DNA of 64,000 bases, from NCBI RefSeq assembly GCF_025399195.1, contig NW_026252108.1, positions 62,001 through 126,000 of the forward strand, read 5' to 3'. This DNA is from Umbelopsis ramanniana AG. Lineage: Eukaryota > Mucoromycota > Umbelopsidomycetes > Umbelopsidales > Umbelopsidaceae. Below the pieces are notes generated by a model. The model was not told the DNA's origin. It did not search any database and saw only the letters and a list, made by a program, of their open reading frames with translations. Both the position numbers and the translations under genes were made by a program. Within the stretch, counting starts at the first letter, position 1. Every line of letters starts with the position of its first letter. Shown here piece after piece: positions 32,701-49,910 of the stretch.

Positions 32701-33765
32701 ATGACAAATCAATATACAGTATTTCGTCTACCTGACAAGGGAAGTAGCTTGGACGCGCTCAAGTCGTACAAGGAACCCATGCCTGAGCTGGACAAACATC
32801 AGGTTGTGGTCAGAATTTGTGCTGTAGCATTGAACTACCGCGATATTGCTATTGCAGAAGGAACCTACCCGTTCCCAGTCAAGAAGTCTGTTATTCCATG
32901 TTCAGACATGTGTGGTGTAGTCCATCATGCAGGCTCCAGGGTCAAGTCCCTCAAGAAAGGCGACAAAGTCATTTCTCTCTTTATGCAAAATGCATTGTAT
33001 GGCCCATGCACTGATTGGCACGATGGCCTGGGAGGTCCTATAGATGGCGTCCTCCAAGAGTACGCAGTGTTTCCCGAGCATGGACTCGTGAAGATCCCAA
33101 AGGAAGCCCTGATGACGGACGCTGAAGCGGCTTCTCTGGTTTGTACCGGAGTAACAACCTGGAATGCGCTGTACGGCAATGTTCCTCTAAAACCAGGACA
33201 AACAGTGCTTGTCTTGGGCACGGGTGGCGTCAGCATCACAGCACTGCAAATTGCCAAAGCAGCTGGTGCAAATACCATTGTAACATCGTCCTCAGATGTT
33301 AAACTGAAGCATGTCCAACGCGCTTACAAACCAACCCATGTTATCAATTACAAGAAGTGTCCAGACTGGGAAAAAGAAGTTTTGGATTTCACCGGTGGTC
33401 ATGGAGCCGACTACATTGTTGAAACTGGCGGCGCCGGCACCATTGAAAAATCTTTGCAATGCGTTGCTTTCGGTGGCATCATTTCTGTCATTGGGTTTTT
33501 AGCAGCATGTCCTGCAGATCAAAGACCAGATATGGCCGGCCTTGCCCTAGCCAAAGGTGCTGTTGTGCGCGGCATAATGGTTGGCAACAGGCAGCAACTT
33601 GAAGAAATGGTCAGGTTTACTGTAGTGAACAATATCCATTTGCCAGTAGATAAAGAATTTCCTTTCAGTGATAGTGGAGTCATGGAAGCCTTCCAGTATA
33701 TGGCTCAAGCTGGCCATGTGGGTAAAGTATGTATCAACTTCACACATGACCTTGTACCCAAGTAG
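32701..33765 (+). CDS. MDR-family NAD(P)-dependent alcohol dehydrogenase/quinone oxidoreductase, copy 1
   Basis: A single-exon gene of 354 residues. The N-terminal GroES-like domain carries VALNYRDIAIAEGTYPFP and PCSDMCGVV. The Rossmann nucleotide-binding motif is LVLGTGGVSITALQIAKAAG (~178-197), followed by VINYKKCPDW and GADYIVETGG. The GHE catalytic-zinc signature of classical zinc ADHs is not visible, so a zinc-independent reductase is more likely; the substrate cannot be read. It is strongly similar to the next gene (roughly two thirds or more identical by eye), on the same strand 341 bases away, so they are tandem duplicates. Lack of introns contrasts with nearly all neighbours. Confidence 0.88.
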   Translation: MTNQYTVFRLPDKGSSLDALKSYKEPMPELDKHQVVVRICAVALNYRDIAIAEGTYPFPVKKSVIPCSDMCGVVHHAGSRVKSLKKGDKVISLFMQNALYGPCTDWHDGLGGPIDGVLQEYAVFPEHGLVKIPKEALMTDAEAASLVCTGVTTWNALYGNVPLKPGQTVLVLGTGGVSITALQIAKAAGANTIVTSSSDVKLKHVQRAYKPTHVINYKKCPDWEKEVLDFTGGHGADYIVETGGAGTIEKSLQCVAFGGIISVIGFLAACPADQRPDMAGLALAKGAVVRGIMVGNRQQLEEMVRFTVVNNIHLPVDKEFPFSDSGVMEAFQYMAQAGHVGKVCINFTHDLVPK

Positions 33766-34106: not shown

Positions 34107-35162
34107 ATGAATGCGCAGAAGCACACTGTATTTCGTTTATCTGCATTCGGAGCTACGCTGGATGGCATGAAGTCGTTTAAGGAGCCTCTTCCACCGGTTG
34201 ATAAGCAGTCAGTGTTGGTCAAGATAGGCGCTGTAGCTCTCAATTACCGTGACATTGCTATTGTGGACGGAACATATCCATTTCCCGTCAAAGATTCTGT
34301 TGTGCCGTGCTCCGACATGTGTGGTGTCGTTGAGGAAGTCGGTGCTCTGGTAACCAACTTCAAGAAAGGAGACAAAGTCATTGGCAATTTCATACAAGAT
34401 GCCTTATACGGTGCACCCACCAACTGGAATTCTGGATTAGGGGGCCCATTGGACGGTGTGCTTCGAGAGTATGTTGTACTGCCTGAATACGGTGTGGTCA
34501 AGATTCCCAAAGATACGAACATGTCCGATGCTGAAGCGGCTTCGCTAGTCTGCACTGGTGTGACCACTTGGAACGCTCTTTACGGCAACGTACCGTTAAA
34601 ACCTGGACAGACCGTCCTCCTTTTGGGCACCGGAGGCGTTAGTATGACAGCGCTTCAAATTGCCAAGGCTGCCGGAGCGAAGACCATCATCACGTCTTCT
34701 TCAGATGAAAAACTGAAGCTAGTTCAAGAGCAGTACCAACCAACCCATGTTATCAACTACAAGACCAAGCCAGATTGGGACCAAGAGGTGCTTAAGCTTA
34801 CCGATGGTCAAGGCGCTGACTATATCATCGAAACAGGAGGAATAGCCACCATTGCAAAGTCTTTGGCATGCGTAGCCTATGGCGGAAATATATCGGTTGT
34901 TGGACACTTAGGCGGCAACCCTCGACCTGAAGATCGTCCAAATGTTGCAGCCCTTGCCTTGGGTAAGGGTGCTGTGGTTCGTGGAATCATGGTAGGCAAC
35001 AAACAACAACTTGAAGAAATGGTCAGATTTGCTGTAGTCAACGACTTGCACATGGCTGTTGACACAGTATTTCCCTTTACTGACTCCGGGGTAAGAGAAG
35101 CTTATGAGTATTTGCTTCAGGCCAAACATATAGGCAAAGTGTGTATCAATTTTGAGAAGTAA
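34107..35162 (+). CDS. MDR-family NAD(P)-dependent alcohol dehydrogenase/quinone oxidoreductase, copy 2
   Basis: A single-exon gene of 351 residues, paralogous to its upstream neighbour across its whole length. It shares VALNYRDIAIVDGTYPFP, PCSDMCGVV, the Rossmann loop LLLGTGGVSMTALQIAKAAG and the C-terminal HIGKVCINF. Differences concentrate at the N-terminus, in residues 95-120 and in the loop after the cofactor domain, so substrate range may have diverged. No catalytic-zinc signature was seen. A TATA box is present 57 bases upstream of the start, which is less evident for copy 1. Confidence 0.88.
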   Translation: MNAQKHTVFRLSAFGATLDGMKSFKEPLPPVDKQSVLVKIGAVALNYRDIAIVDGTYPFPVKDSVVPCSDMCGVVEEVGALVTNFKKGDKVIGNFIQDALYGAPTNWNSGLGGPLDGVLREYVVLPEYGVVKIPKDTNMSDAEAASLVCTGVTTWNALYGNVPLKPGQTVLLLGTGGVSMTALQIAKAAGAKTIITSSSDEKLKLVQEQYQPTHVINYKTKPDWDQEVLKLTDGQGADYIIETGGIATIAKSLACVAYGGNISVVGHLGGNPRPEDRPNVAALALGKGAVVRGIMVGNKQQLEEMVRFAVVNDLHMAVDTVFPFTDSGVREAYEYLLQAKHIGKVCINFEK

Positions 35163-41614: not shown

Positions 41615-42686
41615 CTAGTAGGTAATACCTTTCTCCGATCTTTCGACAGCAATCTTGGTAAATTCATCCAAATCTTCCTTTGGCAAGGCCAATTTATCGC
41701 TATCAAGGCCTCTGGTTAATGCAGTATTACCCGCATTGTCTTTGAAGAAGCTGCGTGAATAGAGTACCGTAACCAAGGCAGAGTAATCTCCTTTTTGAAG
41801 CTTCTGTGAGGCTTCATCGTATATGTCCTGGATCGGGCGACTTTGGATCTTCCAATCTTGCTCAGTCGTGTTAGTGACGCGCATAACGGAATCCAACATC
41901 TCTCTCTGGTTGACGGTGAAGGAACCGATGTAGGCAAACTTATTCTTGTAGTTACTCAAGCATGGAGTGGTATCTTGTTCATTATCGGGAGAAACCTTCA
42001 AGCTGAGCAGCTGTGCGACTCCACGACCAACTTGAGGGAAGGTAGAGGTGGTAATACGAGTATTGCCGTCGTCGAAGAAGGTCACGGAGCGATTCTTGAT
42101 GTCAATTCCGTAATTGCCGAGACCGAGACTGAATTCGTACCAGAAGCCAGTGCAGATACCGATCCAAGAGCTCACTCCAAGCTTTTCAATGTGATCGCGG
42201 TATTGAGTTTTGGCCGCGTTGACAAAGACATCCTCGCGACTTACCACGTTGGCATTGTCGCCACCGAACTCATTAGGGAGGATAAAAGGAACTTTGGCAG
42301 CAGCGGCGGCTTCGATCAACTTTGTCTGCTGATCACTTGGTGCTCTGGTGCCCATGGTGATAAGAAGGACTTCTTGACCTTGAAGAGCTTCGACAATGGA
42401 TGTTTGATTGTCATAATCAATGCGCTTTACCTCGACACCGGCGGGAACTTGTGAGGTGCTGTCGCTGCGAGTGATAGCAGTGATCTTGAATTTACCTGTC
42501 TTTAGGAGCGCTTCAGTGATGTAGCCACCGATTTGGCCGCCTGCCTACGAAGATAAGGTTGTTAATACATGCTGACGCAGACAGACTTGAAATCATATTA
42601 CTTTTGAATCGACTTACTCCGACAATAGCAATTCTTTCAACGTGATTGTTGTTGAAACTTGTGGTAGATTGGTTAGCGTTGGACAT
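41615..42686 (-). CDS. NmrA-like / isoflavone-reductase-like NAD(P)-binding protein
   Basis: Two exons from right to left: 42618-42686 and 41615-42544, coding 332 residues. The nucleotide-binding loop spans the splice junction: ERIAIVG then AGGQIGGYITEAL, an atypical short-chain dehydrogenase (GxxGxxG) loop. Then come ITAITRS and PNEFGGD, as in fungal NmrA/CipA and isoflavone-reductase relatives. Such proteins sense or use NADP(H) as reductases or redox-dependent regulators; the substrate is unknown. The long upstream gap (1.4 kb) may hold its promoter. Confidence 0.85.
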
Positions 42687-44133: not shown

Positions 44134-46374
44134 CTACCAGCTAAATGATTCCTCGTAGTATGGAATACCTTCCTCAGAGACTGCACAACGAACCTCGTCG
44201 TTCAGGCCAGGAGGACCGCATGCAAGGACAGCAACCGACGAAGGGGAGACCGTCACAATTTCGTTGATTCGCTTTATCACGTTGGGTCGTGCTCCAAAGT
44301 GGATTGAATCGGCCAATGGTTTTGGTAGGTCTTCAGCCTGAGATTCTTTAGTAATGTAAATCTCCACGTCTATGGCGAGTGAAGAGTCTGCTTCTTTCAA
44401 AAGCTTGCAGAGATCCTCTTGAACCCAGTGCAAGGCTTGACTAGTGCGAACAATCCAGATAAATATAATATGTCTAGTCCTTCCAGGGCTCTTGGTGATG
44501 GCTTTCTGTAAATAGGGATATGAGGCAGTTATGCCTACACCACCAGTGATATAAACTGCCGTGTCGTATTGATCCATCGGTGCGGTATGTCCATAAGGGC
44601 CTTCAATGATAACATTTAGCTCGAGTGGCTTATGGTTGTCCAAAATCTTTCTGTACAGCTTGGCAGTCAGACCTCGTTGGGGTCGAATTAAGAGATCAAA
44701 GCTAGGTCCATTGAAGGTTTGAGATGTTGAAGAACCGGAGGCTGATGCTCTGTCTCCTTCGGTTTTAGCTATATCCGTCTCCGGGACGGGAAGAGTTTCA
44801 TTAACTGATGCTTCCAGACTAGATGGCTCGGACCATTTGGCAATTGTAAAAGGATGAGACTGCCATAGCGAGATAGAAGGAACATATATGTAGACATATG
44901 CACCAGGTCGAATGTTTCGCAAGAAAGGGCGGTTTGCAGGGACTTGTAGCAGAATGCAATCTTCTGGTAGTACTCGGGCAACACAGGATTGGTAACCGGT
45001 TTTGGCTAATTTGATATTTAGCAGAATCAATCTGACAAGGCGAATAAATCGATCAAACGACCAGATAGCTACGGAAGCATAAAGCCAAGGCATGAAAGCC
45101 ATTAACGGGATGTACTCCACGTGGTACCATAAACCGATCATAAAGAAAACCACCATAAAGATGTGGGTAGCAAGGAAAAATTCGTAGGCACGAGTGCGGA
45201 AGGTCGGCATTGCCATTGCCAAAATGAATGCACCCAGAATGGTAGCGACGATACCATATTGAAAGTACAAGTCGGTAGCATACAGCTTGTATAAAGTCCA
45301 TCCGTCGTAGCCAATAGTGAGATAGGGGTATACCGTGTATGCGATGGAATGAACCAAGCCATGGAAGAACATGGTACGACTGATCCATTTGTGAGCGACT
45401 GTAAATCGGTCGTAACTCCAGCCAGTGACATAAAGCATGACGTTGTTTTTGCTTGAGAATAAAAACACCATAGGAAGTTGTGTGAATGAGACGATGCCAG
45501 TACGATCAGCAATATAGCGACAAAGTTGCAAAGGATTGTTGTCTGGCCAATATGTATTGTCGGTAAACAGGCGATAGTTGGGAAACAAGATGACAATGTT
45601 GACAATCAAGAAAATGGCAAGGGCAATGCTTTCAATACGCGTAGGGATTGTCACTCGCACACCGAGGAGACGACCTTGGCGACTATGTAAGCCATTGTGG
45701 AATAATGCAGGATTGATGAACTTCTTTCTCAAATACTGGCTGGATCGGGAAATCATAGACTTCTTCTTTGATACTCTACTTCTTGCTGCTCTCAAACCAA
45801 GGTGATGGTATATGTTGTTGATCACGCCAAGAATAATGTATATGAGGACGACTACGTTGGTAGCTCCTCCGTAAACATTTGCAAGCCATATCTGTCTGTT
45901 GTATTCATTGATAGTACGAAACGTAGGTTCAATTTCTTCTTGGCTGAATAGCACTGTGGAGTAGATAGGTTGTGTTTTGTCGATTGTAGATCCAGGGAGG
46001 ATATAGTGCGTAGCGTTATTTAGAGTTGAGATGTACTCGGTATTTGCAGCAAGGCCGCCACAAATATCTTGTTGCAAATAGTCCCATGCGACTGCAGCCT
46101 CACTTTTGCAGTTATTTGCATAGCAAAGTGCCATAGAACCTAAGTAGGGAACACTTCCACATTGGCAACTTGCGAAATCGACCAGCGAGAGATCTGTGCT
46201 GCTGCAATTGGAGAACAAATAGGTGGTAGCTCCAGCTTGACAACCTGAGTAGCATATGGGTTCGTCAGCAAGGACGGTCTTGGCAACTTGTATTAGGGTT
46301 AAGAAGCTGGATAATACCAATGCCCTGGTAAACATTTTTGGTGCAAGAGTAATTTTCCAAGGCAACAAAAACAA
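44134..46374 (-). CDS. ferric reductase with N-terminal CFEM-like domain
   Basis: A single exon of 746 residues, or 733 from the ATG at 46335 that starts the signal peptide (MFTRALVLSSFLTLIQVA). Residues ~41-107 hold eight cysteines spaced C-x3-C-x11-C-x12-C-x-C-x11-C-x4-C-x15-C after PIC, close to the fungal CFEM (heme-binding) consensus, including a TD before the CxC. A ferric-reductase membrane domain follows, with paired histidines (FFHGLVHSIAY; THIFMVVFFMIGLWYH). Then come FAD (HPFTIAKW) and NADPH (ITGGVGITASYPYL, ACGPPGL) sites. Ferric reductases move electrons from cytosolic NADPH across the plasma membrane to Fe(III). The CFEM part suggests that heme or iron is held next to the reduction site. 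The gene is intronless. Three ATCTGATAA sites lie upstream. Confidence 0.88.
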   Translation of the reverse strand: MFLLPWKITLAPKMFTRALVLSSFLTLIQVAKTVLADEPICYSGCQAGATTYLFSNCSSTDLSLVDFASCQCGSVPYLGSMALCYANNCKSEAAVAWDYLQQDICGGLAANTEYISTLNNATHYILPGSTIDKTQPIYSTVLFSQEEIEPTFRTINEYNRQIWLANVYGGATNVVVLIYIILGVINNIYHHLGLRAARSRVSKKKSMISRSSQYLRKKFINPALFHNGLHSRQGRLLGVRVTIPTRIESIALAIFLIVNIVILFPNYRLFTDNTYWPDNNPLQLCRYIADRTGIVSFTQLPMVFLFSSKNNVMLYVTGWSYDRFTVAHKWISRTMFFHGLVHSIAYTVYPYLTIGYDGWTLYKLYATDLYFQYGIVATILGAFILAMAMPTFRTRAYEFFLATHIFMVVFFMIGLWYHVEYIPLMAFMPWLYASVAIWSFDRFIRLVRLILLNIKLAKTGYQSCVARVLPEDCILLQVPANRPFLRNIRPGAYVYIYVPSISLWQSHPFTIAKWSEPSSLEASVNETLPVPETDIAKTEGDRASASGSSTSQTFNGPSFDLLIRPQRGLTAKLYRKILDNHKPLELNVIIEGPYGHTAPMDQYDTAVYITGGVGITASYPYLQKAITKSPGRTRHIIFIWIVRTSQALHWVQEDLCKLLKEADSSLAIDVEIYITKESQAEDLPKPLADSIHFGARPNVIKRINEIVTVSPSSVAVLACGPPGLNDEVRCAVSEEGIPYYEESFSW

Positions 46375-48779: not shown

Positions 48780-49910
48780 ATGCTCAAAACATTTCGGACA
48801 TTATTACCCTATTCACGGCCATTTGTGCATTTGAACACAACTTTTTGCAAGGAGCCATTGGCAAAAGTTCACTCTGTTAGACCACTACGACCTTTTTTCC
48901 GTACATATATAATGACTGAAACTATGAGTCAACCTCAAATCGTAACCGCTGCATGCTGTATCATTGGGTAGGCCTATTACTACGTATTCTTGTTGAAACT
49001 GTATCTGATGTTTTTTAACTCGGATTTTGTTCCCTAGCGATGAGATATTAAATGGAAAAACTCGAGATTCCAACGCTAATTATCTTGGTATGCACGATTT
49101 TTCAGTTGGCTATCTTATTACTTCACATCGAAATCTAATAATTGCTAGCCAAAATGCTTTTTGACCTTGGAGTGGAACTCAAACGAATTGAGGTTATAAG
49201 CGACGATCGCGACGAAATTGCCGAAACGGTACGGAAGATGTCGAATAAGTACGATCTGGTCTTCACAAGCGGTGGTATAGGTAGAGTTATTTTCTTGATG
49301 ACGTTTTCAATCTTGTGTGGAGGGTATTAACTGGATAGTAGGGCCTACGTTGGATGACATAACATATAGCTCAATTGCTCATGCCTTTGGATTGGAGCTG
49401 AAACTGGATGATGCGACATGTCAGTCTATGATCGACATTTCAAGCAAGAGAATCAATGATTGGTCTTTAACGGAAGCTCGCAAGCGAATGGTCATCTTCC
49501 CGCATCCCGCCGAAATCGTTCGAACCAGAGAAGATATGTGGGTTCCGATCGTTGTCGTCAATGGCAATGTGCATATATTGCCAGGTATTCCCAAACTATT
49601 TGAGAGCCTAGCACACTCTCTCACTCCACGGATTCTCGATTTGATAGAAAAGCGTGGCCTTAAGGACACGAAATTTTACCGCGCACAAATTGCCACTTCG
49701 CATAACGAAGGCGAAATTGCCCCATATCTGTTAGATCTGCAGGGACGTGCATCTGCAGTAAAAATTGGCTCGTATCCAAAATGGGGTACGGATTCCAACG
49801 GCGTTAGAGTAGTTGTAAGCGTTGTAGGCAGAGATGAAGAACAGGTCAAGAAGTATGGTGACGAAGTGCAAGAAAAGCTAAACGGCTGGAAATATCAGGA
49901 ATCAGAATAG
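48780..49910 (+). CDS. molybdopterin-binding (MoCF/CinA-like) domain protein
   Basis: Four exons (48780-48967, 49038-49087, 49149-49280, 49342-49910) code 312 residues. The domain begins with VTAACCIIGDEILNGKTRDSN and contains the glycine loop FTSGGIGPTLDDITY, classic for the molybdopterin-binding fold. The rest includes FPHPAEIVRTRE and VHILPGIPKLFE, as in the N-terminal domain of eukaryotic FAD synthase (FLAD1), where FAD hydrolase activity has been reported. The PAPS-reductase-like FAD synthase half is absent. The first ~44 residues are basic and lack acids (SRPFVHLNTTF, RPLRPFFRTY), like a mitochondrial presequence; an inner ATG at 48912 (MTETMSQ) would give a cytosolic form. Confidence 0.82.

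Follow-up and report, generated by a model that had tools for sequence, protein, structure and literature searches.

Ferric reductases of the FRE family have been linked to the CFEM hemophores in Candida albicans, where the eight nearest structural homologues predicted for Csa2, the five CFEM hemophores aside, include six FREs (Roy et al., 2022; PMC9635878). The match lies in the FRE N-termini, which carry six of the eight cysteines, and it was concluded that the CFEM fold is adopted by the FRE substrate-binding domain. Among the 12 C. albicans FREs with such an N-terminal domain, six of the cysteines are found in ten and four in the other two, while Frp1 and Frp2, which are required for heme use, are without it (Roy et al., 2022). 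Here, we describe a gene in a 64,000-nucleotide stretch of the soil fungus Umbelopsis ramanniana AG (Mucoromycota; NCBI RefSeq GCF_025399195.1, contig NW_026252108.1, positions 62,001 to 126,000; hereafter, the window), which encodes a complete FRE preceded, on the same chain, by an ectodomain with all eight CFEM-type cysteines. The product is probably a plasma-membrane ferric-chelate reductase of the FRE family in which a CFEM-like substrate platform would stand over the outer heme. An earlier note on this sequence had proposed a ferric reductase carrying its own CFEM-like domain; its central inference is already in print for a yeast (Roy et al., 2022).

The open reading frame (ORF) at 44134-46335, on the minus strand, runs uninterrupted from ATG to stop and requires no intron (Table 1). 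The earlier note had recognised a real gene, but had placed its start at 46374, 39 bases upstream of the ATG. In a Pfam scan, the check that the note had proposed, Ferric_reduct (99.8 bits), NAD_binding_6 (76.8 bits), and FAD_binding_8 (59.2 bits) all score above their cut-offs on one chain, and the paired histidines and the HPFT, GGVGIT, and CGPPG motifs are where a complete FRE had been read. The two histidine pairs of the membrane domain region, H315/H329 and H391/H405, are each spaced H-x13-H; H315, H329, and H391 are invariant in 17 aligned FREs, and H405, just beyond the end of the Ferric_reduct domain (residue 401), is conserved in at least 90%. In the FRE superfamily, two such pairs hold two hemes in series. 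N107 of a predicted glycosylation sequon is likewise the same in all 17 aligned FREs, with T109 kept in at least 90%. A U. ramanniana protein, P0002, has an equal length and is 91% identical to the window FRE over its full length; therefore, in another annotation, too, the N-terminus and the reductase are part of one gene. Judged by its sequence, the window protein is an ordinary, complete FRE.

The ectodomain cysteines (residues 28, 32, 44, 57, 59, 71, 76, and 92) follow the spacing C-x3-C-x11-C-x12-C-x-C-x11-C-x4-C-x15-C, which agrees residue by residue with the earlier reading and is of the CFEM type when set against the CFEM consensus. The PIC motif ending in the first cysteine (P26-I27-C28) is also in place; the TD said to precede the CxC is present as T47-D48, but D48 lies nine residues ahead of C57. 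A loose form of the eight-cysteine pattern occurs in one of the 360 stop-to-stop frames of 60 or more amino acids in the window, namely the FRE frame, and in none of 200,000 shuffles of residues 24-120 that preserve composition. The union of a CFEM-like eight-cysteine ectodomain and a complete FRE on a single chain in an early-diverging fungus stands as proposed.

The predicted fold of the ectodomain is helical, and its best match is Csa2 (4y7s) when the chains ranked by Foldseek are rescored with VIA-align. Csa2 is the top row for both structure models, although one of its leads (3.0 versus 2.3) amounts to a tie. By itself, Foldseek yielded no significant match in the Protein Data Bank (PDB) for either model, and Csa2 was absent from its lists at E ≤ 10. 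Against PF05730, whose curated Pfam cut-off is 22 bits, the HMMER comparison suggested in the earlier note gave 16.3 bits for the whole chain, 20.5 bits for residues 1-101, and 18.8 bits for residues 24-140, all below the cut-off. The note had held that the lack of a CFEM match, combined with an unlike fold, would count against the domain; the Pfam score does fall short, but the predicted fold lies nearest to Csa2. PDB sequence searches with the FRE N-terminus returned nothing relevant, nor did one with an alignment of stand-alone CFEM proteins, a profile that also missed Csa2. With hhalign, no signal was obtained between FRE ectodomains and three of the five Umbelopsis homologues of a stand-alone CFEM protein (described below), a comparison of little power at fewer than two effective sequences per profile: the scores were 8.5 (probability 0.1) for the Umbelopsis set, 10.9 for the Mucorales set, and 11.0 for all 13 rows, and of 200 shuffles of each kind, 183 that kept the cysteines and 184 of full columns reached or exceeded the Umbelopsis score. 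The sub-threshold Pfam score, the silent profile comparison, the lack of a significant Foldseek match, and a C3-C4 stretch without Asp at the position demanded by the strict CFEM consensus would all suit an FRE-specific, cysteine-rich helical domain that is not homologous to CFEM and resembles it in spacing and helices by coincidence or analogy. Such convergence is nevertheless quite unlikely, as the eight cysteines agree in order, Csa2 heads the list for both models, and the C. albicans FREs provide a separate structural argument (Roy et al., 2022). In addition, a CFEM protein of Marssonina, MbCFEM10, itself lacks cysteines 1 and 7 together (PMC9684206).

The same two cysteines set the Umbelopsis FREs apart. 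An alignment of 33 FREs, selected chiefly because their N-terminal pattern could be read, comprised eight Umbelopsis-type rows (the window protein, four records named Umbelopsis, and three close ones), six Mucorales rows, and 19 others, including ten named as yeasts and one labelled as an Asgard metagenome-assembled genome (MAG); FREs of basidiomycetes, Mortierella, Glomeromycotina, and chytrids lie outside this sample. C2, C3, C4, C5, C6, and C8 are each present in 32-33 of the 33 rows. C1 is found in seven of the eight Umbelopsis-type rows (P0003 begins after it) and C7 in all eight, and neither occurs in the 25 remaining rows. All eight cysteines are also present in P0002, P0004, P0005, P0006, P0007, and P0014, the remaining close homologues whose N-terminus is complete (54-91% identity). 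Across all 121 FRE records, the C2-C6 pattern is present in 73, representing 42 distinct sequences over the first 150 residues, and is missing from 48, some of which are truncated; C1 and C7 are carried by the identical seven records among the 73. Because C1 and C7 are gained or lost together across FREs, the pattern suggests that they are probably disulfide partners. The fusion is not a one-off: the six-cysteine form is common to many FREs, and its likeness to CFEM was recognised by Roy et al. (2022). A search with residues 20-120 only recovered four Umbelopsis-type FREs among 93 candidates, and how far the domain extends beyond these was therefore judged from alignments and patterns. Two records are odd in themselves: P0121, a Candida FRE fused to a candidapepsin domain, perhaps through a gene-model error, and P0097, a yeast-like FRE under an Asgard archaeon MAG label, perhaps a binning error.

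In a tree of 43 of the 121 records (midpoint root only), the eight Umbelopsis-type and seven Mucorales FREs each form one group (both 100/100), and the two groups are joined (100/100) with 28 other proteins outside, 13 of which have the six-cysteine pattern. The full set of eight cysteines may be either ancestral or regained in Umbelopsis. It is conceivable, if on balance doubtful, that the Umbelopsis FRE reflects an ancestral state from which both the CFEM hemophores and the six-cysteine FRE ectodomains arose; CFEM would then be older than the split between Mucoromycota and Dikarya, would have served first as a reductase platform (or joined one very early), and would have lost C1 and C7 separately in Mucorales and yeasts. 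For the more distant ferric-reductase/NOX-like paralogues in the genome (L002-L006, L014, L016, and L017; G000 C33, C5, C24, and C59), a six-frame scan with exons unassembled gave no single open frame with the eight-cysteine or the six-cysteine pattern.

The genome (22.8 Mb, 123 contigs) also encodes a stand-alone CFEM protein. A PF05730 search at E ≤ 0.001 matched nothing, its controls included, and was repeated at E ≤ 10, whereupon one exon of locus L007 scored 22.2 bits. Spliced (intron L007:1384-1455), the product has 152 amino acids and scores 22.9 bits against the cut-off of 22; by eye, it begins like a signal peptide, contains eight cysteines and a stretch rich in Ser and Ala, and ends in a hydrophobic segment of the glycosylphosphatidylinositol type. 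It matches proteins of U. ramanniana (95%), U. vinacea (70%), and Umbelopsis sp. WA50703 (66%). Three of its five homologues reach the cut-off as printed (P0123, 22; P0124, 25.5; P0126, 22.5), and two are under it (P0122, 21.8; P0125, 17.9). A further weak match, L009 (18.6 bits), was dismissed as chance, for it lies opposite a 785-codon open frame and contains a stop. According to Zhang et al. (2015; PMC4530338), 36 species of Zygomycota, Chytridiomycota, and Microsporidia lack CFEM, which would have arisen once, in the common ancestor of Ascomycota and Basidiomycota. Although their scores are near the cut-off, the predicted Umbelopsis CFEM genes speak against this Dikarya-only origin. Elsewhere, CFEM is mentioned only in a reference (PMC12380104), discussed for Candida (PMC7693903; PMC12153323), or named without a link to Mucoromycota (PMC12543289), each as regards the part available. 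In this partial search of the literature, no description of an eight-cysteine FRE or of a Mucoromycota CFEM domain was found.

The NADPH and FAD domains, the membrane domain with its two histidine pairs, and a secreted-type N-terminus ahead of the first membrane helix make it likely that the enzyme passes electrons across the membrane to a ferric substrate positioned on the CFEM-like platform. By analogy with the family, electrons would pass from NADPH to FAD, then to the inner and the outer heme, and exit at the outer face. The eight-cysteine ectodomain would form a disulfide-braced, CFEM-like helical basket above the outer heme, and would hold or guide a ferric substrate (a chelate, a siderophore, or possibly heme) for one-electron reduction. 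Umbelopsis would retain the full set of CFEM cysteines; what the compared Mucorales and yeast FREs lack, 1 and 7, is most simply a single disulfide. The freed Fe2+ could then be passed to a permease. FTR1-type permease homologues are encoded at two places elsewhere in the genome, as is a partial heme oxygenase match with one in-frame stop (intron-split or broken), so both reductive uptake of iron and degradation of heme are possible.

Heme is improbable as the specific substrate of the ectodomain. A dedicated heme receptor-reductase would capture heme through an Asp ahead of the CxC, as Csa2 does, and reduce the captured iron for uptake or release; the full cysteine set, the top fold match to heme-binding Csa2, the heme oxygenase homologue, and an Asp53 four residues before C57, compatible with a D-x(2,5)-C consensus, are all in keeping with this. 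Yet Asp is not conserved ahead of the CxC. T47 is conserved in all eight Umbelopsis-type rows, but position 48 is Asp in two, and position 53 is Asp in three, Asn in two, Ser in two, and Glu in one. Asp occurs at -3 or -4 from C4 in one of six Mucorales rows, and at -3 in seven of the 19 others. At the corresponding site, four C. albicans FREs have Asp and six have Asn (Roy et al., 2022). Such variability would suit a platform whose substrates differ, and dedicated heme capture is no more than a possibility. The Frp proteins, which the note had called upon, give no backing either, since these FRE relatives act in heme uptake without the domain. Finally, none of ten ORFs scanned, among the 23 others of 150 or more amino acids in the window, matches a heme- or iron-uptake family (three match no family). 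We thus consider the dedicated receptor a poor candidate, and the general ferric-substrate platform the better reading.

Of the ORFs scanned, those closest to the FRE gene are an NmrA-like fragment (41615-42355, just below cut-off) and a FAD synthase middle domain (49428-49910, 48.9 bits), the latter about 3 kb from this flavin-dependent reductase gene, probably by coincidence. Two neighbouring dehydrogenase ORFs that resemble each other and point the same way (32701-33765 and 34107-35162; only the first scanned) appear by eye to be a tandem duplication.

Table 1. Coordinates of the ferric reductase gene, its domains and the stand-alone CFEM gene
Feature	Position	Strand	Basis
Complete FRE-type ferric reductase gene, 733 amino acids, single exon	44134..46335	-	Pfam domains, P0002 match
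Signal-peptide-like hydrophobic N-terminus, residues 1-23	46267..46335	-	Read from sequence alone
Eight-cysteine CFEM-like ectodomain, residues 28-92 (C28 to C92)	46060..46254	-	
Predicted N-glycosylation sequon N107-A-T	46009..46017	-	Read from sequence, alignment
Ferric_reduct membrane domain, residues 279-401, with H315, H329, H391	45133..45501	-	Pfam, motif reading
FAD-binding domain, best stretch residues 453-512, HPFT at 494	44800..44979	-	Pfam, motif reading
NADPH-binding domain, residues 590-719, GGVGIT at 598, CGPPG at 706	44179..44568	-	Pfam, motif reading
L007, stand-alone CFEM gene, one short intron	L007:1273-1803 (G000 C2 about 203766-204296)		

The link drawn by Roy et al. (2022) in one yeast rested on six of eight cysteines and on predicted folds; an eight-cysteine FRE strengthens it, and is a natural subject for learning what the ectodomain binds. 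Like the CFEM hemophores Csa2, Rbt5, and Pga7, the Umbelopsis ectodomain has eight cysteines in equal order and a predicted helical fold nearest to Csa2. The hemophores, on the other hand, are stand-alone proteins without a membrane reductase, while in the Umbelopsis protein the candidate Asp is unconserved and the Pfam CFEM score is sub-threshold. Frp1 and Frp2 share the FRE-related membrane core, but not the N-terminal domain. The Mucorales FREs of Absidia, Cunninghamella, Halteromyces, and Chlamydoabsidia, the sister group in the tree, have an equal domain order, and six of them are 38-42% identical to the Umbelopsis FRE along the chain, but cysteines 1 and 7 are in none of the six rows. 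The C. albicans FREs have the same architecture on a single chain, with a CFEM-like extracellular N-terminal domain followed by the FRE membrane and FAD/NADPH domains, and in one of them, P0047, C2, C3, C4, C5, C6, and C8 align with those of the Umbelopsis FRE. Compared with these, the Umbelopsis protein has all eight cysteines and a longer C3-C4 stretch (12 residues). The general connection between FREs and CFEM is already published for Candida, and the Umbelopsis protein adds a more complete case from an older lineage; it is not a new kind of protein.
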